Made by a program: the position numbers and the translations under genes. Source: Propionibacteriaceae bacterium (lineage in GTDB: Bacteria > Actinomycetota > Actinomycetes > Propionibacteriales > Propionibacteriaceae). From it: a stretch of 64,000 nt of DNA. Below the pieces are notes generated by a model. That model was not told the origin of the DNA, did not search any database, and was given only the letters and a program-made list of their open reading frames with translations. Below are positions 20,343 through 34,478 of the stretch, one piece after another. The DNA is taken from assembly GCA_025965155.1 (NCBI GenBank), contig JAOPXN010000026.1, positions 19,718-83,717 on the forward strand, read 5' to 3'. Positions within the stretch are counted from its first letter, which is position 1, and each line of letters opens with the position of its first letter.

Positions 20343-21200
20343 CTATAGCAGCGAGCTGATGTAGCGACCTGCCTTGAGTGCGGCTTGCGGCCGGTCGCCG
20401 TTGCTGACGTCGCGCGTCTCGAGCTCGAGGGAGAGTTTGCCGGTGTAGTTGATCTCGGCGAGTGCTGTGGCGGTGTCGGCGAAGTCGACCTGCCCGTTTC
20501 CGATGCTGTGGTGGATGTAGCCGGGTTCGGCGTCGCGGAGGTGAACGTGGCGGATCCGGCTCCCGAAGTCCTGAACGAACTCGCGCGGGGTGGAACCGGA
20601 GGCGACGATGTGGCTGACGTCGCAGATCAGCCCGATGTCGTCGGGCAGGATGCGCGTCAGGGCGTGAGCACGCTTGAGGTCGTAGCAGAGCCGGAAGAAG
20701 TGTGGTGCCTCAACCCAAAGCTCCAAGCCAGCGGCAGCGCATTCCTGCTGGATGCTGGTGAGTTGTTCAGCGACTAGGGCCAGGTCGTCCTCGAGGGTCG
20801 TGATCGGGTCGTGTTGCTGGGCGCCGTTCGGCAGCACCAGGCCGGTGCTTCCCACGGCTCGACACAACTCGATAAGCCGTTGGGTGTGGTTGTGGCGGCT
20901 CTCGGCCTGGGTGAGGTCAAGGGGCCGGTTCAGATCCCCGACATCGGCATTGACGGAGCGAACGGTGAGACCCGAGGCTCGAACGATCCCAGCGACCTGG
21001 CGGACAGCGTCGGAGGTCAGATCGTAGGGGACGTGGTCGCAGACCCCCGGCAGGGCGCCGAGGTCAATTTCGGTGAATCCCAGCCCGGTGATGACGTCGA
21101 GTGCTTCGTCGAGGGGGAGGTGGCGCAGGGTGATCGAGGAGCAGATGACGCGGTCGGGGTTGAGTGTGTCTCCGGCGCTCGTTGCCGTGGCTGCGGTCAT
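20343..21200 (-). CDS. Sugar phosphate isomerase/epimerase-type TIM-barrel protein (AP endonuclease 2 family)
   Basis: A 285-residue xylose-isomerase-like TIM barrel. Strand-like repeats are visible: VICSSITLRHLPLDEAL, GFTEIDLGALPG, VRSVNADVGDLN, GLELWVEAPHFFRLC (Glu probably metal-binding), IGLICDVSHIVASG (Asp/His), IRHVHLRDAEPG (His) and KLSLELETRD (closing Glu). These positions match the divalent-metal ligands of the fold. Members isomerise or epimerise sugars, inosose or hydroxypyruvate. It is divergent from gntR; the palindrome at 21221 lies between them, which suggests shared control and a role in the same catabolic pathway. Confidence 0.8.
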   Translation of the reverse strand: MTAATATSAGDTLNPDRVICSSITLRHLPLDEALDVITGLGFTEIDLGALPGVCDHVPYDLTSDAVRQVAGIVRASGLTVRSVNADVGDLNRPLDLTQAESRHNHTQRLIELCRAVGSTGLVLPNGAQQHDPITTLEDDLALVAEQLTSIQQECAAAGLELWVEAPHFFRLCYDLKRAHALTRILPDDIGLICDVSHIVASGSTPREFVQDFGSRIRHVHLRDAEPGYIHHSIGNGQVDFADTATALAEINYTGKLSLELETRDVSNGDRPQAALKAGRYISSLL

Positions 21201-21220
21201 GGCAGAACGGTAGGGTGTCA

Positions 21221-21232
21221 GATGTTAACAGT
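21221..21232. promoter_or_regulatory. Candidate GntR operator 1 (GATGTTAACAGT)
   Basis: Shares TGTTAACAGT with the perfect palindrome at 22022-22033 and lies between the divergent isomerase and gntR genes. FadR/FCD-type GntR proteins typically recognise short palindromes of this kind. Confidence 0.6.
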
Positions 21233-21263
21233 CAAGCAGAACAACATTTGCTACCATGACGAT

Positions 21264-21953
21264 GTGGCGGCCTCGCAGATCAAGTCCATCGAAGCCATCG
21301 GGCTTCACACCCGGCGAGAGCTGATCTTGGACCGGTTGCGTGAGGCGATCAGCTCGGGCCAGCTTTCGGCCGGAACGCACCTGGCCGAGGTGGAGCTCAG
21401 CGCGGCGCTTGGGGTGAGCCGCGGCACCCTCCGCGAAGCTCTGCGTCATCTTCAGCAGGAGGGTCTGCTCACGGCGGACTCGCGCGGCCGGCTTTCAGTC
21501 CGGGTCGTCAACACGCGGGAGGTCGAGGAGATCTTCTCCGTTCGCGAAGCGCTGGAGGGTCTTGCCATGCAGATCCTCTGCCAGCGCGAGGACCGTTCGA
21601 CCGTGGTGGCCGATCTCCGCGATCAGCTGGACGGGCTTCGCGCCGCCGAGGGGGAGTTCACCGCTCAGCTCGATGCTGACCTTGCCTTTCACGCTCGCAT
21701 GTGCGAGCTCAGCGGAAACGCCACGCTGCTCAGCACCTGGCGTGGCGTCAGCGGGCTGGCGCGCGCGGCGATCACCGCGGCGGGGCCGGAGACCGCGCTG
21801 CACAACATGGCCTATGAGCGACACCTCCCCATTGTTGAGCTGATTCAGACCGGCGACCTGGCCGGCGGGCAGGCGTTCCTGGCTCGGCACATGGACGAGG
21901 CTGCGCAACGCATCATCGATCAGATGACCCTCGCCGCTGCGGCCGCCGGCTAA
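21264..21953 (+). CDS. GntR-family transcriptional regulator, FadR/FCD subfamily
   Basis: A 229-residue regulator. The winged HTH occupies about residues 12-78 (TRRELILDRLREAISSGQL then ELSAALGVSRGTLREALRHL and LLTADSRGRLSV). The all-helical FCD ligand-binding domain follows (EIFSVREALEGLAMQ, DADLAFHARMCELSGN, HLPIVELIQTGDLAGGQAF, LARHMDEAAQRI), whose Asp/His residues usually bind a metal and an organic acid or sugar acid. The tracked starts at 20811 or 21222 would place coding sequence over the putative operator; the GTG at 21264 (VAASQIKSIEAIG) avoids this and is preferred. It is expected to repress the locus until its ligand appears. Confidence 0.85.
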   Translation: MAASQIKSIEAIGLHTRRELILDRLREAISSGQLSAGTHLAEVELSAALGVSRGTLREALRHLQQEGLLTADSRGRLSVRVVNTREVEEIFSVREALEGLAMQILCQREDRSTVVADLRDQLDGLRAAEGEFTAQLDADLAFHARMCELSGNATLLSTWRGVSGLARAAITAAGPETALHNMAYERHLPIVELIQTGDLAGGQAFLARHMDEAAQRIIDQMTLAAAAAG

Positions 21954-22021
21954 ACCCTCCACTCCACGGCACGGCGCCCGGCACGGGTACGGCCACCCTC
22001 ATTGGTAGGTTGCGCAGTTGC

Positions 22022-22033
22022 ACTGTTAACAGT
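22022..22033. promoter_or_regulatory. Candidate GntR operator 2 (perfect palindrome ACTGTTAACAGT)
   Basis: A fully self-complementary 12-mer lies 70 bases after gntR and upstream of the SDR/ABC genes. It shares ten consecutive bases with the site in front of gntR, so the regulator probably controls both its own promoter and the catabolic operon. Confidence 0.62.
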
Positions 22034-22187
22034 ACGATCGTCGACCAGAGGCTCCCGCTGATCGGTGGCACTATCGAAGGAGATAGATATGGCCGACATT
22101 CCTGTCAGGGATGTGAACGCCGCAGACCCGGTTCTCGGGACCCGGCACGAACTCCGTGTAGCGGTTGGCCTCTATCCGCGCTTCAAC

Positions 22188-22420
22188 GACCTGGCCCACC
22201 GGTCCGATATCATCCGGGCCGTCGTGCTCGCCGCCTCGTGCGGTTTCTCAGCCACCCCGCGGTGCCGGCGTCCAACCGACCGCGTCGAACGCAAGCCGTC
22301 TACGTCTTCGGTACGGCCTCGATCGTCCTGTTCGGCATCCCGATGTTCCTGCTGCTCAGTACCGGAAACCTCCGCCTCATCATCGTCCTGCTCAGCGACG
22401 TCAGCGGCTGGCCACCTTAA
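22188..22420 (+). pseudogene. Remnant of an MHS-type MFS metabolite transporter
   Basis: Pieces of one MFS region are scattered over frames: HRSDIIRAVVLAASCGF, then LSHPAVPAS, then TDRVERKP, then VYVFGTASIVLFGIPMFLLL. Joined they resemble the MHS (metabolite:H+ symporter) segment G-F-L-x2-P-L-F-G-x-L-S-D-R-[VI]-G-R-K-P-V-Y-x-F-G-A, the cytosolic loop plus next helix. At least two indels are needed and the remaining 350 or so residues of the transporter are gone. An upstream ATG (about 22089, MADIPVRDVNAADPV) opens a frame entering this remnant but shows no domain itself. The position between gntR and the SDR suggests an earlier importer of this locus, now replaced by the ABC system. Confidence 0.6.
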
Positions 22421-22551
22421 GCAGCCACCGTGCAGGACTGCGCAGCACCCCCAATTCCGGGCACTAGGCCGGACCGTGCGAGGTCAGCGGCTAGTCCGAG
22501 GGGCCAACGACGAGTCGACCACCCAAGCAGCAACCGAAGGAAGGCACTGAG

Positions 22552-23328
22552 ATGAGTTACCAGACCGGAGTAGGGCAGCGGACCGCCGTTGTGACGGGGG
22601 CGGCCGCCCCGCGCGGCATCGGCTACGCGACCGCCAGACGCTACGCCCGGGAGGGCTGGGCTGTCGCGCTCCTCGACATCGACCAGAACGGCATCGCGGC
22701 CTCGAACCAGCGCCTGCGCGACGAGTCTGACGTGCCCAGCATCGGTCTCGCCGTGGACGTCACCGACCCCGACAGCATCAAGCGCGCGGTGGCTGAGATT
22801 GCAGAGGCGGGCTTGCCTCCGGTCGGTGCGGTTGCCAACATCGCCGGACTCGCGTCGCCGGTGCCGTTCCTCGACGTCGACCTGGCCCTGTGGCAGAAGG
22901 TCCTCGACGTCAACCTCACCGGGACGTTCCTGATGTGCCAGGCATTCCTTCCGCAGATGATCGACAACCGGTACGGGCGCATCGTCAACATGTCGTCAGT
23001 TTCGGCCCAACAAGGCGGCGGCGTCTTCTCCAAGACCCCGTACTCGGCGGCGAAGGCCGGCATCCTGGGCCTGACCAGGTCCCTGGCACGGGAGATGGCC
23101 GAGCACGGCATCACCGTGAACGCCGTCAGTCCCGGGGTGGTCGCCACCGACATCCGCGCGGGCGCCACCGACGAGGAGAACGAAGCCCGACTGGCAGCCG
23201 CGGTCCCGTTGAAGCGCCAGGCGACCGTGGACGACATTGCGGCTTTGTTCGTCTGGCTCTCCAGCGAAGACAGCTCCTACATCACCGGCGGCACCCACAA
23301 CATCAACGGTGGCTCCTACATCGCCTGA
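22552..23328 (+). CDS. Short-chain dehydrogenase/reductase (SDR)
   Basis: A 258-residue classical SDR. The NAD(P) turn is VVTGAAAPRGIGYATA (T-G-x3-G-x-G-like with an inserted residue), with ALLDID at the end of the second strand, where the Asp favours NAD. N-I-A-G follows, then IVNMSSVSAQQ (catalytic Ser), YSAAKAGILGL (catalytic Tyr and Lys) and NAVSPGVVATD. It would oxidise a hydroxyl of the sugar-like or cyclic substrate brought in by the ABC transporter. The ribosome site is GGAAGG before the ATG at 22552. It is the first intact gene after operator 2 and lies 170 bases before the ABC ATPase. Confidence 0.85.
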   Translation: MSYQTGVGQRTAVVTGAAAPRGIGYATARRYAREGWAVALLDIDQNGIAASNQRLRDESDVPSIGLAVDVTDPDSIKRAVAEIAEAGLPPVGAVANIAGLASPVPFLDVDLALWQKVLDVNLTGTFLMCQAFLPQMIDNRYGRIVNMSSVSAQQGGGVFSKTPYSAAKAGILGLTRSLAREMAEHGITVNAVSPGVVATDIRAGATDEENEARLAAAVPLKRQATVDDIAALFVWLSSEDSSYITGGTHNINGGSYIA

Positions 23329-23498
23329 CACAGACCGACGCTCCCGGCGTCCAGCCGACGCGCCTTAAGCACTAGCCAGGTACCGCCAACGCCCTGCCCT
23401 GCTGGACGCAGGCAGACGCCGAGCACCACGCCAACTCCTGTTGTTGATCTTCGACACCCGCAGCAGGCACACGACAAGCACAAGGAGGTGCGTTTCTG

Positions 23499-25001
23499 AT
23501 GGCCGACCGACCAGACCCTGTCTTGACCATGACCGGAATCGCCAAGAACTTCGCCGGGGTGCAAGCCCTGCGATCGGTCGACTTCGCCCTGTACGCAGGG
23601 GAGATCAACGCGCTGCTCGGCGAGAACGGCGCAGGCAAGTCGACCCTGATCAAGATCATCGCCGGCGCCCATCAGCCTACCGCAGGGGCCATCACCCTCG
23701 ACGGTGTCGAGACCCGGTTCCGCAACCCCCATGCGGCTACCAGCGCTGGCGTCGCCGTCGTCTATCAGGAGACCAGCCTGGCTCCGGACCTGTCGGTGCT
23801 GGAAAATCTGTATCTCGGCTCCTGGGAGCACAAGGGGGGTCGGGTCAGCTGGCACACGATGCGCGTGCAGGCCGCCGAGCTGTTCGAGCGACTGCAGATG
23901 TCCATCCCGCTCTCGGCCCGGCTCGGGTCACTGAGCAAGGCCACCGCGCAGCAGGTCGAGATTGCGCGCGCGCTGTTGCGAGGCGCCCGGATCCTCATCC
24001 TCGACGAGCCAGGGTCGGTGCTGAACGATCAGGAGCTGCGGAGCCTGCACGAGCTGCTGATCGAGTCCAAGCAGAAGGGCGTCGCCGTCGTCTACATCAC
24101 CCACCGGCTGGAGGAGGTCTTCCGACTCGCCGACGAGATCACCGTGCTGCGTGACGGTGTGACCGCCGCCGTCGCCCGCGCCGACGAGGTCGACGAAGCG
24201 TGGGTGATCCGGCAGATGGTCGGCCGTAGCGTGGAGAGTCTCTACGCCCGTCAGGAGACGGCCATCGGGTCCCCGGTGCTCCAGCTGCGGGGACTCTGTG
24301 GCGGCGAGGCATTCGAAGACGTCGACCTGACGGTCCACGCCGGGGAGATTGTCGGTCTGGCCGGCCTGGTCGGCGCCGGTCGCTCCGAGCTGGCCCAGTG
24401 CATCGCCGGACTGCACCCACAGACCGGCGGCTCCTTGTCCATCCTGGGGGCCGAGGTTCCGGCCACACCGTGGGCTCGGCAGGAGGCCGGGGTCGGCTAC
24501 CTCCCCGGTGACCGTGGCGGGCAGGGCATCTTCTCCTTCCGCACGCTCATCTCCAACATCACCTTGACCACGGCCCGCCGCTACGCATCCCTCGGCTTCG
24601 TCCGGCGCGCCGCTCAACGTCAGGCGGCCGCTCAGGCGATGACCCAGCTCAACGTCAAGCCGCTACTGCCCGACCTCGCCATCGGAAATCTGTCCGGCGG
24701 CAACCAGCAGAAGGCGCTCATCGCCCGCGTGTTGGCCACCGAACCCAAGGTATTGATCCTGGAGGAGCCAACCAGCGGCGTGGACATCGGCGCCAAAGAG
24801 GAGATCCACCACCTGATCGACAACCTGGTCGCCCACGGCCTCGGCGTGCTGCTGATCTCCTCCGATCTCCCCGAGCTGGTCGGCATGTCGGACCGGACCC
24901 TGGTCATGCGCGAGGGCCGGATCGCCGGGGAGATCGGCAAGGGCGCCGAGCCTGAGGACGTCATGGCCATCGCCTTCAGCTCTACCTCGGTGAAAGGCTG
25001 A
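23499..25001 (+). CDS. Sugar ABC transporter ATP-binding protein (RbsA/MglA-like, two ATPase domains)
   Basis: A 500-residue tandem ATPase. The first half has Walker A GENGAGKSTLIKIIAG, a degenerate signature LSKATAQQVEIARALL and Walker B ILILDEPGSVLND, where family members usually read DEPTSALT. The second half has the typically altered Walker A GLVGAGRSELAQ, a good signature LSGGNQQKALIARVLA, Walker B ILEEPTSGVDIGAK and switch-region LLISSDLPE. This layout is typical of ribose/galactose/AI-2-type importers. AAGGAGGTG before the ATG is a near-consensus ribosome site, the strongest in the locus. The permeases follow after three bases. Confidence 0.9.
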   Translation: MADRPDPVLTMTGIAKNFAGVQALRSVDFALYAGEINALLGENGAGKSTLIKIIAGAHQPTAGAITLDGVETRFRNPHAATSAGVAVVYQETSLAPDLSVLENLYLGSWEHKGGRVSWHTMRVQAAELFERLQMSIPLSARLGSLSKATAQQVEIARALLRGARILILDEPGSVLNDQELRSLHELLIESKQKGVAVVYITHRLEEVFRLADEITVLRDGVTAAVARADEVDEAWVIRQMVGRSVESLYARQETAIGSPVLQLRGLCGGEAFEDVDLTVHAGEIVGLAGLVGAGRSELAQCIAGLHPQTGGSLSILGAEVPATPWARQEAGVGYLPGDRGGQGIFSFRTLISNITLTTARRYASLGFVRRAAQRQAAAQAMTQLNVKPLLPDLAIGNLSGGNQQKALIARVLATEPKVLILEEPTSGVDIGAKEEIHHLIDNLVAHGLGVLLISSDLPELVGMSDRTLVMREGRIAGEIGKGAEPEDVMAIAFSSTSVKG

Positions 25002-25004
25002 TTC

Positions 25005-25991
25005 ATGTACACCGATCGTTCATCGCAGTACTCGATCGCCGGCTTCCTGGTGGTCGTCTTCCTCACCCTGTTGCTGGTCGCACCACGGTTCTTCGACCCC
25101 ACGAACCTGGTCGACCTCGGTACCAGCGTGGCCATCTCCGCGATCATCGGGATCGGCGCCCTTGCCGTCATCGCTACCGGAAACATCGACGTCAGCGCCG
25201 GCGCCATCTTCGGCATCTCAGGGGTCGCCGGAGCCTCCGCCGCCTCAGCTGGGCTGGGGACCGGGGCCGCGCTGCTCGTGGCGGTGCTCACCGGCGCCAT
25301 GCTGGGCGCCTTGAACGCCGTACTGGTAACGGTGCTTCAGCTTCCCTCGATCATCGCCACGCTCGGAACCTCAAGTCTGTTCGCAGGCGGCCTGATCTTC
25401 CTCACCAGCGGCGGGCTGTGGGTCGTCAACCTGCCCCCGGGGTTCACCTGGCTCGGCCAGGGACGGCTCCTGGGGCTCAGCGTCCCGATCTTTGTCGCAC
25501 TCCTCGTGCTGCTGCTGGCCTGGGCGCTGCTGAGTCAGACCCCGGCCGGACGGCGGATCTTCGCTGTCGGGTCCAACCCGGAGGCCGCGCGGCTGGCTGG
25601 CATCAATGCCAAGCTGGTCGAAGGCGCCACCTTCGTCCTCAACGGCGCCCTGCTCGCTCTCGCCGCCACCCTAACCGTCGCCCGCCAGGGGCAGGCCCAG
25701 ACCAATCTCGGTACGGCGGTCACCATCACCGCCATCACGATCGCCGTCGTCGGCGGGACCAGCGTCTTCGGCGGCACCGGCACCGTGCTCGGCATCGTCC
25801 TCGCCGCCGTACTCGTGGAGAGCACGAGCTCCGCGCTCACCTTCCTCCACCTCGACCCGCTGTGGGCACAGACGCTGCAGGGCGTGTTCATCCTCGCCGC
25901 GCTGACCCTGTCAGTGCTGCAACGGCGCAGCGCCGGCGGCCCGCTCCGTCTGCCCATCTCGATTCTGAAGGGAAACCGTCGTGCTGCGTAA
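25005..25991 (+). CDS. Sugar ABC transporter permease (RbsC-like), first of two
   Basis: A 328-residue protein with about nine or ten membrane segments and the BPD_transp_2 signature regions: AISAIIGIGALAVIATGNIDVSAGAIFG (the G-x-I-D-[LV]-S-x-G motif) and GSNPEAARLAGI in the cytosolic coupling loop that docks on the ATPase. GGTSVFGGTGTVLGIVLAAVL is the usual last part. The start is 3 bases after the ATPase stop, and its end overlaps the next permease start by 11 bases. It forms a heterodimeric channel with the second permease. Confidence 0.88.
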   Translation: MYTDRSSQYSIAGFLVVVFLTLLLVAPRFFDPTNLVDLGTSVAISAIIGIGALAVIATGNIDVSAGAIFGISGVAGASAASAGLGTGAALLVAVLTGAMLGALNAVLVTVLQLPSIIATLGTSSLFAGGLIFLTSGGLWVVNLPPGFTWLGQGRLLGLSVPIFVALLVLLLAWALLSQTPAGRRIFAVGSNPEAARLAGINAKLVEGATFVLNGALLALAATLTVARQGQAQTNLGTAVTITAITIAVVGGTSVFGGTGTVLGIVLAAVLVESTSSALTFLHLDPLWAQTLQGVFILAALTLSVLQRRSAGGPLRLPISILKGNRRAA

Positions 25992-26994
25992 AGCCCTCAC
26001 TACGTCCCTGTCGGCGGTGGTTCTGACTGTGCTCCTGGTCGTCATTGTCGTCACCATGAGCACCCTCTCAGCCAACTTCCTCAGCGTGCCCAACCTGCTC
26101 AGCGCCCTCGCGCTGGCCGCCCCGCTCGGCATCATCGCCATCGGGATGACCTTCGTGGTCCTCATCGGCGGGATCGACCTGTCGGTCGGTGCCGTCCTGG
26201 CGCTCAGCGCAGTCACCGTCGGGCTTGCCTGCAGCGTCGGCGTGCCCGTCGGCGCCGCCGCAGCCCTGGGCCTCATCGTCGGCGCCCTGTGCGGGCTGCT
26301 GAACGGGGTGCTGGTCGCCCGCCTCGGACTGCCCTCCATTGTCGTCACCCTGGCGACCATGTCGGTCTACGGCGGTCTCGCGCTCGCCTTCTCCGGAGGC
26401 AGCTCCTACCCGATCCCGTCCGAGTTCGCGTTCCTCGGCCAGGGGCTGGTCGCCGGGATCCCGATGCCGCTGGTCTGCCTCCTCGTGCTGTTCGCGGTCG
26501 CTTACGTCGCCCTGACCCGCACCACGTACGGCGACAAGATGTACGCGCTCGGCACCAACCCGACCGCGATGCGGTTCGCCGCCCAGAAGGCCGGCAGGCT
26601 CAGCCTGTCCGCCTACGTCATCTCGGGGCTGCTCAGCGCGGTGGCCGCCCTGATCTTCTGCTCGATGGTCTCCAGCGCCAAGGCCAACTTCGGCACCGGC
26701 TACGAGCTGGCGGCCGTCACGATCGTCGTCGTCGGTGGGGCAGCCCTCACCGGCGGCAAGGGAACCCTCTGGGGAACCCTGCTCGCAACGGTGGTGATCG
26801 CCTTCCTGCAAAACGGGTTCTCGATCGCCTTCATCGCCAGCGAGGTCCAGACGATGTTCATCGGTGGTGCCCTCATCCTGACTGCCGCCACCTACCGCTG
26901 GCTGCCGCGCCTGGTTGCCGCCCGACCGGCGGGGACTACTTCTGCACCGCCCACTTCCACCCACACCACACCTACCACGGAGTCAACGCAATGA
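25981..26994 (+). CDS. Sugar ABC transporter permease (RbsC-like), second of two
   Basis: A 337-residue homologue of the preceding permease: GIIAIGMTFVVLIGGIDLSVGAVLAL holds the G-G-I-D-L-S-V-G signature, ALGTNPTAMRFAAQKAGR the ATPase-contact loop, and VVVGGAALTGGKGTLWGTLLA the late conserved helix. The hydrophilic Thr/Pro tail of about 25 residues is unusual for the family. The GTG at 25981 is inside the previous gene, and the stop overlaps the lipoprotein ATG (ATGA). A two-permease arrangement recalls LsrC/LsrD rather than the single RbsC. Confidence 0.88.
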   Translation: MLRKALTTSLSAVVLTVLLVVIVVTMSTLSANFLSVPNLLSALALAAPLGIIAIGMTFVVLIGGIDLSVGAVLALSAVTVGLACSVGVPVGAAAALGLIVGALCGLLNGVLVARLGLPSIVVTLATMSVYGGLALAFSGGSSYPIPSEFAFLGQGLVAGIPMPLVCLLVLFAVAYVALTRTTYGDKMYALGTNPTAMRFAAQKAGRLSLSAYVISGLLSAVAALIFCSMVSSAKANFGTGYELAAVTIVVVGGAALTGGKGTLWGTLLATVVIAFLQNGFSIAFIASEVQTMFIGGALILTAATYRWLPRLVAARPAGTTSAPPTSTHTTPTTESTQ

Positions 26995-28028
26995 AGCTGA
27001 AGACAGTTATGGCGGCAATCCTCGCCGTCCTCACCCTTACACTCGCCGCTTGCAGCATGGGCGGCACCCCCACCGCGGGCGCCCCAGCCAGCGGGACCAG
27101 CAAGAGCGGCCCGCTGCAGATTGCCATCATCCCCAAGATCAACGGAATTCCGTACTACCAGGCCGTCAAGAAGGGTGTGGACGAGGCGGCTGCCGAGCTG
27201 GGCGGCGACAAGGTCAAGGTCATCTGGAACGGCCCCAGCACAGCTGAGGCGAGCGCTCAGGTGCAGATCATCCAGAACATGATCAACGCGAAGGTAGACG
27301 TGATCGCCATCGCCGCCAACGATCCCGCCGCCGTCGCCCCCGCGTTGCAGCAAGCCAAAGACGCGGGCATCCGGGTGATGTCCTGGGACGGCGACGCAGA
27401 CGTGCGTGAACTGTTCGTCCAGCTGATCGACGCCAAGCAGTTCGGTGCGGCGCTGGCCGACCAGATGGCCGAGCAGGTCGGCGAGAAGGCCGACGTCGCC
27501 GTGGTCACCTCGACCCGCACCGCCCCCAACCAGTCCGCGTGGCTGAAGGGCATTGAGGCACGCATTGCCGAGGCGCACCCCGGACTGAAGATCGTCACCC
27601 TCACGGAGAGCGGTGAGGACCAGGGCCTCGCCCAGAAGCAGACCAAGGACATCCTCGGCGCCTACCCCGACGTAAAGGGAATCTTCGCGATCACCACCGC
27701 CGCTCTCCCGGGTGCTGCCCAGGCCGTGGACTCCCTCGGCAAGAAGGGTCAGATCGCGGTCGTCGGCAACTCGACCCCGAATGCGATCAAGCAGTACTTC
27801 ACGTCGGGCACCTTGAAGTCCGCAGTGCTGTGGAACCCGATCGACCACGGCTACCTCACCGTGCAGGCCGCCTATGCCCTGGCCACCGACAAGGTCACCG
27901 ACGGGACAAGCTTCGAAGCGGGCCGGCTCGGCACCTACACCCCGAAGGCCGACGACAAGAGCTTGATCATTACCTTGAGCAAGCCGCTCGTCTTCACTCC
28001 GGACAACATCAACAACTACGACTTCTGA
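26991..28028 (+). CDS. Sugar ABC transporter substrate-binding lipoprotein (periplasmic-binding-protein type I)
   Basis: A 345-residue lipoprotein. The signal AAILAVLTLTLAACSMG carries the lipobox L-A-A-C with Cys at residue 20. The mature part is a Peripla_BP_4 fold: QIAIIPKINGIPYYQAVKKG (first strand and helix), MINAKVDVIAIAANDPAAV, IRVMSWDGDAD, GIFAITTAALPGAAQAV and IAVVGNSTPNAIKQYFTSGT. It is closest in pattern to RhaS/LsrB-like binding proteins. The tracked 579-residue ORF begins in an unrelated frame. The ATG at 26991 overlaps the permease stop. A very stable hairpin follows directly, which may keep this mRNA part abundant. Confidence 0.88.
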   Translation: MKLKTVMAAILAVLTLTLAACSMGGTPTAGAPASGTSKSGPLQIAIIPKINGIPYYQAVKKGVDEAAAELGGDKVKVIWNGPSTAEASAQVQIIQNMINAKVDVIAIAANDPAAVAPALQQAKDAGIRVMSWDGDADVRELFVQLIDAKQFGAALADQMAEQVGEKADVAVVTSTRTAPNQSAWLKGIEARIAEAHPGLKIVTLTESGEDQGLAQKQTKDILGAYPDVKGIFAITTAALPGAAQAVDSLGKKGQIAVVGNSTPNAIKQYFTSGTLKSAVLWNPIDHGYLTVQAAYALATDKVTDGTSFEAGRLGTYTPKADDKSLIITLSKPLVFTPDNINNYDF

Positions 28029-28037
28029 TCCCCTGTA

Positions 28038-28077
28038 CGCTTCCCGGCCGGCCCCGCCGCGGGCCGGCCGGGAAGCG
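28038..28077 (+). terminator. Strong 17-bp stem hairpin between the binding-protein and cyclase genes
   Basis: CGCTTCCCGGCCGGCCC pairs perfectly with GGGCCGGCCGGGAAGCG around a 6-base loop. There is no T-run and the cyclase gene follows in the same direction 27 bases later, so it may be a partial terminator or a 3'-end stabiliser that raises binding-protein mRNA relative to the next gene. Confidence 0.65.
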
Positions 28078-28103
28078 CCCCCACACAGTCGCGAGGAGTA
28101 ACC

Positions 28104-29048
28104 ATGACCACGGTGCCGGCCGCCAATCGGATCAGCAAGGCCGCGTTCGACGAGCTGGTCCAGCAGGTCCGCGTCTGGGGACGGCCCGACCAACCCGATG
28201 AGCCTGCACTGTTCACCCGGATCACCCCCGAGGTGACCAGGGCCGCCCTGGCGGAGGTGCACACCGGCCGGACCGTGTCGCTGGGACGGCCCTGGGCCGA
28301 GTCTCCGGCCACCGACAACTCCAGACCGGCACTGCACTACATGAGCGCGCTCGGCATCCTGCTCGCCGACGGCGACACCGAGCCGACCTGCTACAAGGAC
28401 TTCCTCGGCGTCGACTTCCACGGCAAGACCATGAGCCACATCGACGCCTTCAACCACATCGCCTACGCCGGCCAGATCTTTGGGGGTATACCCGCCACCG
28501 AAACCGTGGTCGCCAATGGCATGACAGCCGGAGACGTCAACCTCTACGGACCGCTCATCACCCGTGGAGTTCTGCTGGACATGGCCACCGTCGCAGGGGA
28601 CGCCTGGACCGAACCCGGAACCGCTTGGACGCTCGAAGAGATCCAACATGCCCTCGACTTGGAGCAGGTCACCCTGCAGAGCGGTGACGCGGTCTTGTTC
28701 CGATCCGGCCACGATCGCCGACGTGCTGAGCTCGGACCGTGGGACCCCGACATGGCCGGCGCGGGCGTCCACGTCACCGCCATCCCGTGGCTGCTCGACC
28801 AAGGAGCCGCCGTCCTCGGTGCGGACGGCGAGACCGACGTCCGCCCCAGCCCCGTGGATCAGGTCACCCTGCCCATCCACGTCCTGACCCTGACCATGGC
28901 CGGCGTGCCGCTACTGGACAACCTCAACCTCGAACAACTCAGCAGCGCCTGCGCCGAAACCGGCAGGTACACGTTTGCGCTCTCCGTCGCACCCCTCAAC
29001 ATCCCGCTCGGTACCGGTTCACCGGTCAACCCCACGGCGATCTTCTAG
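28104..29048 (+). CDS. Cyclase-family metal-dependent hydrolase (PF04199, kynurenine-formamidase-like fold)
   Basis: A 314-residue protein. The family metal motif H-G-x-T-x-x-H-x-D-A-x3-H appears as DFHGKTMSHIDAFNHIAYAG near residues 108-125. Further pieces, LITRGVLLDMATVAG, LQSGDAVLFRSGHDRRR and VHVTAIPWLLDQGAAVLGAD, complete the alpha/beta pattern. Known relatives hydrolyse N-formylkynurenine, isatin or cyclic imides/lactones, or act in polyketide cyclisation; at over 300 residues this one is in the longer, mostly uncharacterised branch. GAGGAGT precedes the ATG. As the last gene of the locus it may open a ring or lactone made by the SDR. Confidence 0.8.
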   Translation: MTTVPAANRISKAAFDELVQQVRVWGRPDQPDEPALFTRITPEVTRAALAEVHTGRTVSLGRPWAESPATDNSRPALHYMSALGILLADGDTEPTCYKDFLGVDFHGKTMSHIDAFNHIAYAGQIFGGIPATETVVANGMTAGDVNLYGPLITRGVLLDMATVAGDAWTEPGTAWTLEEIQHALDLEQVTLQSGDAVLFRSGHDRRRAELGPWDPDMAGAGVHVTAIPWLLDQGAAVLGADGETDVRPSPVDQVTLPIHVLTLTMAGVPLLDNLNLEQLSSACAETGRYTFALSVAPLNIPLGTGSPVNPTAIF

Positions 29049-31610: not shown

Positions 31611-32333
31611 TCACTCGCCGCCGGTGCGGCGCAGTACCTCGCTCAGCCGCTCGGCAGCGGCGATCACGGCCGGTGCGTGCAACCGCCCGGGCTGACGCGA
31701 CAGGCGCTCGATCGGGCCGGACACACTGACCGCGGCGATTACCTTGCCGGAAGGGGAGCGAACCGGGGCGGAGACCGACGCCACCCCAGGCTCACGCTCG
31801 CCGACAGAATGTGCCCAGCCGCGCCGGCGCACTGCGGCCAGCGCGACCGCGGAGTAGCGGGAACCCCGCAGGCCCCGCTGCATCCGGTCAGGCTCTTCCC
31901 AGGCCAGCAGGATCTGAGCCGCCGAACCGGCAGTCATGGTCAGCTGGGTGCCGACCGGCACGCTGTCACGCAGGCCGGACATCCGTTCCGCGGTTGCCAC
32001 ACAGATGCGGTAGTCGCCCTGCCTGCGGAACATCTGGGCAGACTCACCGGTGATGTCACGCAGCCGCGCCAGGACGGGCCCTGCGGTTGCCAGCAGGCGG
32101 TCCTCGCCGGCCGCAGAAGCGAGCTCGCCGAGCCGCGGTCCGAGGATGAAACGGCCCTGCAGGTCGCGGCTGACCAGCCGATGATGCTCGAGGGCGACGG
32201 CCAGCCGATGGGCTGTCGGCCGGGCCAAGCCGGTCGCTGCAACGAGCCCCGCGAGGGTGGTAGGCCCGGTCTCCAGAGCACCCAATACGAGGGCGGCTTT
32301 GTCGAGAACGCCAACACCGCTAGAGTTGTCCAT
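31611..32333 (-). CDS. ndgR: IclR-family regulator, NdgR-like, divergent from leuCD
   Basis: A 240-residue regulator. The N-terminal winged HTH (LDKAALVLGALETGPTTLAG, then LARPTAHRLAVALEHHRLV) precedes an IclR effector domain (RLRDITGESAQMFRRQGDYR, VPVGTQLTMTAGSAAQILLA, GVASVSAPVRSPSGKVIAAV). The track extends to 32435, but the ATG at 32333 (MDNSSGVGVLDKAAL) matches family starts. In Streptomyces and Corynebacterium the orthologue NdgR/LtbR sits divergent from leuCD and controls branched-chain amino acid genes; the same arrangement here supports the same role. Confidence 0.85.
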   Translation of the reverse strand: MDNSSGVGVLDKAALVLGALETGPTTLAGLVAATGLARPTAHRLAVALEHHRLVSRDLQGRFILGPRLGELASAAGEDRLLATAGPVLARLRDITGESAQMFRRQGDYRICVATAERMSGLRDSVPVGTQLTMTAGSAAQILLAWEEPDRMQRGLRGSRYSAVALAAVRRRGWAHSVGEREPGVASVSAPVRSPSGKVIAAVSVSGPIERLSRQPGRLHAPAVIAAAERLSEVLRRTGGE

Positions 32334-32342
32334 GCCTTGATA

Positions 32343-32381
32343 CTGCCGTCTCGGATGCTGGAATGCAAGTCTGAACGGCAG
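32343..32381. promoter_or_regulatory. Inverted repeat CTGCCGT...ACGGCAG in the iclR-leuC divergent promoter
   Basis: Seven-base arms separated by 25 bases lie in the 122-bp divergent gap, just in front of the regulator start. It could be the regulator's binding region or pair with promoter elements. Position only supports it. Confidence 0.35.
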
Positions 32382-32455
32382 CGCTACGGGCACCGGCCCC
32401 CAAGTCATCCGAGCCCCCGCGAAAGAGGGCTCCACGTTAGGGAAAGAAGTTGGTC

Positions 32456-33853
32456 ATGGGCAAGACGCTCAGTGAGAAGGTCTGGCAGGATCACGTCGTC
32501 CGGTCAGCGGATTCAGAACCCGACCTGCTTTACATTGATCTGCACCTCGTCCACGAGGTAACCAGCCCGCAGGCCTTCGACGGCCTCCGGCAGGCAGGGC
32601 GGCCGGTACGGCGTCCCGACCTCACGCTGGCCACCGAGGACCACAACACCCCGACGCTGAACATCGACCAGCCGATCGCTGACCCGGTGTCGCGGATCCA
32701 GGTAGACACGCTGCGTGCCAACGCGGCCGAGTTCGGGGTGCGGATCCACAGCCTCGGGGATGTTGATCAAGGTGTGGTGCACATCATCGGCCCGCAGCTT
32801 GGTCTGACCCAGCCCGGCATGACGGTGGTCTGTGGTGACTCACACACCTCGACTCACGGCGCGTTCGGTGCGCTGGCCTTCGGTATCGGCACCTCCGAGG
32901 TCGAGCACGTGCTGGCCACTCAGACGCTGCCGCAGGCGCGGCCCAAGACGATGGCGGTCAACATCAACGGCGAGCCGCCGGTCGGTGTGACGGCCAAGGA
33001 CGTGGTGCTGGCGCTGATCACCAAGGTCGGCACCGGCGGCGGTCAGGGCTATGTGGTGGAGTACCGCGGCTCGACGATCGAGAGCCTCTCCATGGAGGGG
33101 CGGATGACCATCTGCAACATGAGCATTGAGTGGGGTGCCAAAGCCGGTCTGATCGCCCCGGACCGGACCACCTTCGACTACCTGAAGGGCCGCCCGCACG
33201 CCCCGCAGGGTGAGGACTGGGACGCCGCGGTCGAGTACTGGACCACCCTCAAGACCGATCCCGACGCAACCTTCGACGTCGAAGTTGATCTTGACGCCAC
33301 CGAGCTGACACCGTTCGTCACCTGGGGAACCAACCCGGGTCAGGGTGTCTCGCTCGGCGGCCGCGTCCCCGACCCGGAGGAGTTCATCGCCGAGGCCGAC
33401 AGGACGGCAGCTCAGAAGGCGCTGGAGTACATGGCGTTGCAGCCAGGGCAGGCGATGCGCGACATCGCTGTAGACACGGTCTTCCTCGGGTCCTGCACCA
33501 ACGGTCGGATCGAGGACCTGCGGATCGCGGCCGAGGTGCTGCGTGGTCGCCACATCGCGGATAGCGTACGGATGCTGGTAGTCCCCGGGTCGGCACGGGT
33601 TCGGCTGCAGGCCGAGTCCGAGGGCCTGGACGTCATCTTCAAGGAGGCTGGCGCGGAATGGCGCGCCGCGGGCTGCTCGATGTGTCTGGGAATGAACCCC
33701 GACCAGCTTGCGCCCGGTGAGCGCGCGGCATCCACCTCCAACCGTAACTTTGAAGGTCGGCAGGGCAAGGGTGGCCGGACCCACCTGGTCTCGCCGCCAG
33801 TGGCCGCTGCTACCGCAGTGGTCGGCAAGCTCAGTGCCCCAGCGGACCTGTAA
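32456..33853 (+). CDS. leuC: 3-isopropylmalate dehydratase large subunit
   Basis: A 465-residue aconitase-family protein, which with LeuD isomerises 2- to 3-isopropylmalate in leucine synthesis. Visible signatures are [12 protein letters not shown] at the start, [20 protein letters not shown], and the [4Fe-4S] ligands in [14 protein letters not shown] (Cys about 347) and [11 protein letters not shown] (Cys about 407 and 410). The length is normal. ATG 32456 (MGKTLSEKV) is preferred to the tracked TTG two codons earlier. leuD follows after 13 bases. Confidence 0.97.
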
Positions 33854-33866
33854 GGAGATTCAAACG

Positions 33867-34478
33867 ATGGAAAAGTTCAGCACTCACACCGGAACGGCGC
33901 TTCCGTTGCGGCGCAGCAATGTCGACACCGACCAGATCATCCCGGCGGTCTACCTCAAGCGGGTAACGAAGACCGGCTTCGAGGACGGGCTGTTCGCCGC
34001 CTGGCGCAACGACCCCGACTTCGTCCTCAACCGTCCCGCGTTCGCGGGCGCGACCATCTTGATCCCCGGACCTGACTTCGGCACCGGCTCGTCCCGCGAG
34101 CACGCGGTCTGGGCCTTGCAGAACTACGGGTTCCGCGTCGTCATCGGCTCGCGGTTCGGCGACATCTTTCGCGGCAACTCCGGCAAGGCAGGTCTGCTGA
34201 TCGCGGTAGTGGACCAGAAGATCATCGAGGAGCTGTGGGAGTTCGTCGAGGCCAACCCGAGCAGCCCGATCACCGTTGATCTTGCCGAGCGGCGGATCAG
34301 CGCGGACGGTTTCGAGGCCAGCTTCGAGATCGACGACTACACCAGATGGCGTTTGTTGGAAGGTCTGGACGACATCGGGCTGACCCTGCGGCAGGTCGAT
34401 CTGATCGATGAGTTCGAGACCGGTCGGCCCTCGTTCAAGCCCAAAACACTGCCGGCCAAGGTGGAATCACCCCTTTAA
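33867..34478 (+). CDS. leuD: 3-isopropylmalate dehydratase small subunit
   Basis: A 203-residue swivel-domain subunit. It opens [20 protein letters not shown] with the typical N-V-D-T-D-Q-I-I-P stretch, and has [20 protein letters not shown] with the substrate-binding S-S-R-E-H. The tracked ORF begins 53 codons early inside leuC; the ATG at 33867 with AAGGAG nine bases upstream is correct. It is the last gene of the operon. Confidence 0.97.

Follow-up and report, generated by a model that had tools for sequence, protein, structure and literature searches.

The catabolic locus at 20343-29048 of a Propionibacteriaceae bacterium is, as judged by sequence comparison, a mosaic in which a conserved core, made up of a GntR regulator, an SDR dehydrogenase and a TIM-barrel isomerase, is joined to an add-on consisting of an ABC importer and a cyclase. 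Of the MHS-family importer that once served the core, a fossil remains, and the genes that now follow the core encode a divergent CUT2 importer and a PF04199 hydrolase. We propose that these import and open a lactone; we favor this overall reading tentatively, and give it somewhat less than an even chance. The DNA studied was a 64,000-nt stretch (the window) of contig JAOPXN010000026.1 in the draft genome GCA_025965155.1. ORF positions and Pfam matches bore out the eight genes and family labels given in a preliminary description, and its view of the region as a catabolic locus under GntR control, served by an RbsABC-type importer with two permeases, agrees with the gene content, Pfam matches and operators (Table 1).

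Table 1. Features of the locus, with positions in the window
Feature	Position	Strand	Basis or remark
TIM-barrel sugar isomerase/epimerase-type enzyme (PF01261)	20343-21200	-	divergent from gntR; Pfam AP_endonuc_2 1.8e-25
Operator-like palindrome CAGATGTTAACAGTCA	21219-21234	.	isomerase/gntR gap
FCD-type GntR regulator	21264-21953	+	Pfam GntR 2.8e-16 and FCD 7.6e-19
Operator palindrome GCACTGTTAACAGTAC	22020-22035	.	after gntR, upstream of MFS relic/SDR unit
MHS-family MFS permease relic	22089-22390	+	tblastn with MFS protein of L178
Classical SDR dehydrogenase	22552-23328	+	Pfam adh_short_C2 1.2e-61; motifs TGAAAPRGIG, NIAG, YSAAK
Two-domain RbsA/AraG-type ATPase of CUT2 importer	23499-25001	+	two ABC_tran domains, Pfam 1.1e-56
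RbsC-type permease 1	25005-25991	+	BPD_transp_2 1.3e-28
RbsC-type permease 2	25981-26994	+	BPD_transp_2 1.2e-36
Lipoprotein binding protein	26991-28028	+	Peripla_BP_4 8e-66
Long-form PF04199 cyclase-type metal-dependent hydrolase	28104-29048	+	Pfam Cyclase 6e-15

The ORF listed for gntR opens far 5' of the gene, and the start is likely the GTG at 21264. The two permease genes overlap by 11 bp, and the second overlaps the binding-protein gene by 4 bp, an arrangement suggestive of translational coupling within an operon. Between the binding-protein stop codon and the start of the cyclase gene lie 75 bp. The SDR and ATPase genes are separated by a 170-bp gap, in which no terminator-like site or operator was seen, and which could contain a promoter.

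A conserved regulator, dehydrogenase and isomerase module

The core, comprising the FCD-type GntR, the SDR, the TIM-barrel isomerase and the operator ACTGTYRACAGT, recurs in 13 other actinobacterial loci, and the window carries all three orthologues together with the shared operator. Its SDR is 76% identical to that of locus L178, 70% to that of L165, and 57-65% to the others. The isomerase is 39-55% identical to the isomerases of nine relative loci, with the metal-ligand-type residues E164, D194, H197, H220 and E261 invariant in this comparison, and it matched no NCBIfam equivalog. A literature search on the gene set of the module returned nothing useful. Through this locus, a catabolic GntR-SDR-isomerase module comes to light that is found in several actinobacterial families and is as yet unassigned.

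The module is associated with various importers. On two Arthrobacter plasmids (L151 and L152), the isomerase and SDR genes adjoin, and their products are 51-55% and 57-58% identical to those of the window, respectively; the gene order is isomerase-SDR-MFS-transketolase N-transketolase C-GntR in L151, and GntR-TktC-TktN-MFS followed by a divergent isomerase-SDR-DAK kinase-RpiB in L152. An MFS gene and a split transketolase are also found in L160, L161, L162, L164 and L182, and an MFS gene without transketolase is present in L163 and L178. The importer is a TRAP system of the DctP type in L165, L179 and L180, and a GntP permease in L181; each of these four loci also has a split transketolase, which is encoded in 11 of the 13 core loci. 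DAK kinase and RpiB genes are present in L152, L161 and L165, and RpiB also in L182. Two Gfo/Idh/MocA dehydrogenases are encoded in L179. The uncharacterized GntR-MFS-SDR-isomerase form of the module (L178, L160, L161, L151/L152) shares with the window an orthologous GntR (47-69%), SDR (57-76%) and isomerase (39-55%) as well as the operator, but the window has a dead MFS gene, with an ABC importer and cyclase instead, and lacks the split transketolase, DAK kinase and RpiB that some members carry.

In its GntR and SDR, the window is nearest to L178, which has the gene order GntR-MFS-SDR-isomerase, whereas the window isomerase is 55% identical to those of the Arthrobacter-like group and 41% to that of L178. 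Since the isomerase is nearer to one group and the GntR and SDR to the other, even the core is of mixed descent, or its genes have evolved at uneven rates.

The operator-like palindromes that had been pointed out in the preliminary description were also confirmed. The palindrome TGTTAACA occurs exactly twice in the 64 kb (∼0.25 copies expected), at 21219 and 22020, flanking gntR, and sites of the form TGACTGTYRACAGTCA, or near to it, lie between module genes in 11 of the 13 core loci; in L178 and other loci, an equivalent palindrome is located upstream of the MFS gene. The two loci in which such sites are missing (L179 and L181) carry another regulator in place of an orthologue of the window's GntR, which supports the idea that the palindromes serve as operator for this GntR subfamily. 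The window's GntR itself is 69% identical to that of L178, and 47-53% to those of L160, L161 and L165. Genome-wide, the 12-mer ACTGTTAACAGT at 22022 is the sole perfect match to ACTGTYRACAGT, and matches with one mismatch did not exceed the control count.

The decayed permease and the ABC importer

In the window, 598 bp separate gntR from the SDR gene, and this gap contains a decayed MFS permease gene (22089-22390) that was missing from the preliminary description. When searched by tblastn with the MFS protein of L178 (E = 5.7e-15), it appeared as collinear pieces corresponding to L178 residues 19-31 (22131-22169), 274-315 (22173-22298) and 316-346 (22298-22390). The match scored 46.6 bits, whereas none of 999 shuffles exceeded 25.0, and it was reproduced when the whole region was searched. 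The start region is intact, with the ATG at 22089 kept and a ribosome-binding-site-like GAAGGAG in front, while ∼242 codons are deleted, the frame is shifted at about 22298, and the C-terminus is lost. Because the relic occupies the position of the intact MFS gene in L178, we conclude that the order in the ancestor was GntR-MFS-SDR and that the MFS gene died afterward, although an assembly error in the draft genome might also account for the broken gene. This relic was all that we found at the window locus in place of an intact MHS, TRAP or GntP importer, and the gaps of the window held no relics of transketolase, kinase or RpiB, nor any module relic outside the gntR-SDR gap. The fossil gene can be read as a record of importer replacement.

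The importer that is now present has the features of the CUT2 class. Its two nucleotide-binding domains lie in one ATPase chain that is matched over its full length by AraG/RbsA-type models, and it has BPD_transp_2 permeases and a Peripla_BP_4 lipoprotein with a lipobox-like LAAC near the N-terminus. The binding protein falls between the RhaS family (236 bits, cut-off 342) and the LsrB family (189 bits, cut-off 384), its nearest solved structures are rhamnose- and AI-2-binding proteins, and it is at most about 41% identical to anything found in the genomes and plasmids searched. By these sequence measures, the two-permease CUT2 importer is divergent.

The position of the binding protein between LsrB and RhaS, together with the two RbsC-like permeases, raised the possibility of an AI-2 (Lsr-type) or rhamnose uptake system, since the Lsr and RhaS importers share with the window the binding-protein superfamily, the CUT2 architecture and the paired permeases. 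However, all of the curated Lsr and RhaS cut-offs were missed by a wide margin (398/586, 189/384, 150/388 and 150/500 bits for LsrA, LsrB, LsrC and LsrD), the locus has no kinase, LsrF/G or rhamnose enzymes, and its enzymes belong to another conserved module. We consider such a system very improbable, and both assignments, AI-2 (Lsr) and rhamnose (RhaS), were rejected on the curated cut-offs. Accordingly, the Lsr resemblance noted earlier stands at the level of the superfamily and fails at every curated Lsr cut-off; the accompanying remark that LsrF, LsrG and LsrK partners are missing was correct for the genes of 20343-29048. A second RhaS-like CUT2 importer is encoded in the same genome (L192, G000:C113:5886-10680), near a PucR-type regulator, and its binding protein is 36% identical to that of the window.

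The cyclase and the joining of the two halves

The cyclase matched Pfam PF04199 with 56.1 bits (gathering score 23.1). Further members of this family are amidohydrolases, such as kynurenine formamidase and isatin hydrolase. The nearest solved structure is 5ibz (fold match E=4e-18), and the predicted structure confirms the fold only, because its pLDDT is moderate (63) and the region around the metal motif is poor. From its description, 5ibz appears to be MGS0169, a metal-dependent esterase of PF04199, the family to which trans-dienelactone hydrolase also belongs (PMC5341072). The window's cyclase shares the fold and the conserved His/Asp motif residues with these hydrolases (kynurenine formamidase, isatin hydrolase, trans-dienelactone hydrolase, MGS0169 and 5ibz), but differs from them in its association with sugar-type import and in its motif, H106-x5-H112-x-D114-x3-H118, which is invariant in 18 sequences and two residues longer than the canonical HxxxHxDxxxH. 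Among its close PF04199 relatives, we found none whose known substrate is a sugar lactone.

Relatives of the cyclase at 50-55% identity are mostly from Streptomyces, and they adjoin a D-2-hydroxyacid dehydrogenase in 23 of 86 loci and a different CUT2 importer (RbsA, RbsC, Peripla_BP_4) in 72 of the 86, a count that does not represent independent events, since most of the loci are from Streptomyces. This adjacency suggests that the cyclase and ABC import probably work together. The Streptomyces-type cluster (L048-L127, e.g., L049:4688-13847) encodes an IclR regulator, the cyclase, a D-2-hydroxyacid dehydrogenase, 3-HIBDH-type dehydrogenases and a one-permease CUT2 importer, and we found no assigned substrate for it. 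Such loci (L049, L031) resemble the window in that oxidoreductase genes and a CUT2 importer adjoin the gene for a related cyclase (50-55%). In contrast to the window, however, their importer has an ATPase of only about 36% identity, one permease and a dissimilar binding protein, IclR replaces GntR, and there is no SDR-isomerase pair. The comparison thereby brings to light, besides the core module, a cyclase-ABC cluster that is common in Streptomyces and likewise unassigned. In Streptomyces canus, a plasmid locus (L207:8878-13236) encodes a 39.5% relative of the cyclase next to a 2-hydroxyacid dehydrogenase, a gluconokinase and a GMC oxidoreductase. This is possibly a set for sugar oxidation and lactone hydrolysis, and such surroundings would fit a sugar-lactone hydrolase.

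To follow the two halves beyond this genome, the cyclase was searched in 298 genomes of the order, in plasmids and in a single scan of GTDB contigs; the binding protein in 395 genomes of the class, 199 of the family, 396 of the order of G533 and plasmids; and the isomerase and SDR in 395 and 248 genomes and plasmids. One of these searches used a strict threshold of 1e-70 and no positive control. No second locus with both the core and the ABC-cyclase part was found in the genomes, GTDB contigs and plasmids searched, and cyclase, ABC importer, SDR and isomerase occurred together in no genome searched. Among the 14 core-carrying genomes, weak cyclase matches (29-39%) were detected elsewhere in three, and binding-protein matches (35%) in two. 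The eight genes are thus not one conserved unit in these genome collections: the core uses other importers elsewhere, and the ABC importer and cyclase form an add-on beside a decayed importer. Because no searched genome has both halves, their functional link depends on adjacency in one genome.

The absence of any locus with both halves among the searched genomes and plasmids is also what would be seen if they were independent neighbors, with gntR, SDR and isomerase forming a decaying, importer-less module and the ABC-cyclase operon a separate downstream insertion. The 170-bp, operator-free gap before the ATPase gene and the mixed ancestry of the core (Arthrobacter-type isomerase, L178-like SDR and GntR) are consistent with this idea. 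However, all three core genes are intact and have kept their conserved motifs, the SDR and ABC genes are on the same strand without a terminator-like site between them, and the ABC-cyclase operon has no adjacent regulator gene of its own, and we regard independence as rather unlikely. A simple exchange of importers is unlikely too, but by no means negligible: the ABC system would import the substrate of the lost MFS carrier, and the cyclase would have come with the ABC cassette and act on a side form. This fits the MFS fossil remaining in place, the closeness of SDR and GntR to those of the MFS-type relative L178, and the tendency of the cyclase to travel with CUT2 importers. It fits less well with a binding protein of a sugar/AI-2-like class, in contrast to the acid-type carriers of the relatives, a difference suggesting that the imported form is not the same.

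Candidate substrate and pathway

MHS-family MFS, TRAP and GntP importers are mostly carriers of organic and sugar acids, and some MHS and TRAP carriers have non-acid cargo too, e.g., betaine. Since these are the importers of the relatives, the substrate of the SDR and isomerase may be an organic or sugar acid, and since the window has a sugar-type importer and a hydrolase, this acid could arise intracellularly from a neutral cyclic compound, for which a lactone would be the simplest choice. We infer that a small sugar acid, or the lactone of one, is the most probable substrate. The shift in importer class, from acid-type to sugar-type plus a hydrolase, provides a testable hint about substrate. 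The DAK kinase, RpiB and split transketolase of the relatives suggest, by analogy, that the product of the SDR and isomerase would be a short ketose such as a tetrulose.

In the lactone-import mechanism that we favor, GntR would act from both operators to repress the SDR-ABC-cyclase unit as well as the divergent isomerase gene, and be relieved by the substrate or an intermediate. The ABC system would take up a neutral cyclic compound, with a small sugar lactone as the most probable candidate, and the cyclase would hydrolyze it to the hydroxy acid that relatives would import directly via MHS, TRAP or GntP carriers. The SDR would then oxidize the hydroxy acid, and the resulting keto acid would be isomerized by the TIM-barrel enzyme (or decarboxylated with its help), yielding a short ketose, which would enter central metabolism, possibly via the DAK kinase and RpiB of contig C14. 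The most specific version, an undescribed pathway with CUT2 lactone import, a new sugar-lactonase branch of PF04199, SDR oxidation and a new PF01261 branch leading to a tetrulose or pentulose used via DAK kinase, RpiB and split transketolase, we consider doubtful; if it were true, the core would represent a widespread unassigned actinobacterial pathway.

The preliminary description had matched the gene set to no nameable pathway, and none fits the locus now. The erythritol/threitol pathway of Mycolicibacterium smegmatis (Huang 2015, cited in PMC10733421) comprises EltD, LerK, LerI and DerI, with LerK, LerI and DerI converting erythrulose to erythrose 4-phosphate (PMC10733421). Some module relatives recall this pathway in having a DAK-family kinase and an RpiB-type isomerase, and a similar set is encoded on contig C14, but the window locus has no kinase or phosphate isomerase, and its TIM barrel belongs to PF01261 and not to the triose-phosphate isomerase family. 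The earlier remark that a kinase is missing is thus correct for the locus, while a candidate DAK kinase with RpiB is encoded on contig C14, and the C14 locus might take the core's product further. The window locus also has no split transketolase, and the nearest pair in the genome is about 39% identical.

Other sugar-type loci were seen in the same genome. A separate erythritol/threitol-type locus (L189, G000:C14:678-10614) encodes a medium-chain ADH, a TPI-like isomerase, RbsABC, a DeoR-like regulator, a DAK kinase and RpiB. In L191 (G000:C11:15-4359), possibly another transketolase-based sugar locus, the gene for a PF01261 TIM-barrel enzyme precedes those for a split transketolase (about 39% identical to the Arthrobacter pair) and a zinc ADH. 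Within the window, at 31611-34478, a regulator-like gene is divergent from leuC/leuD-like genes (aconitase family 32456-33853, then 33867-34478).
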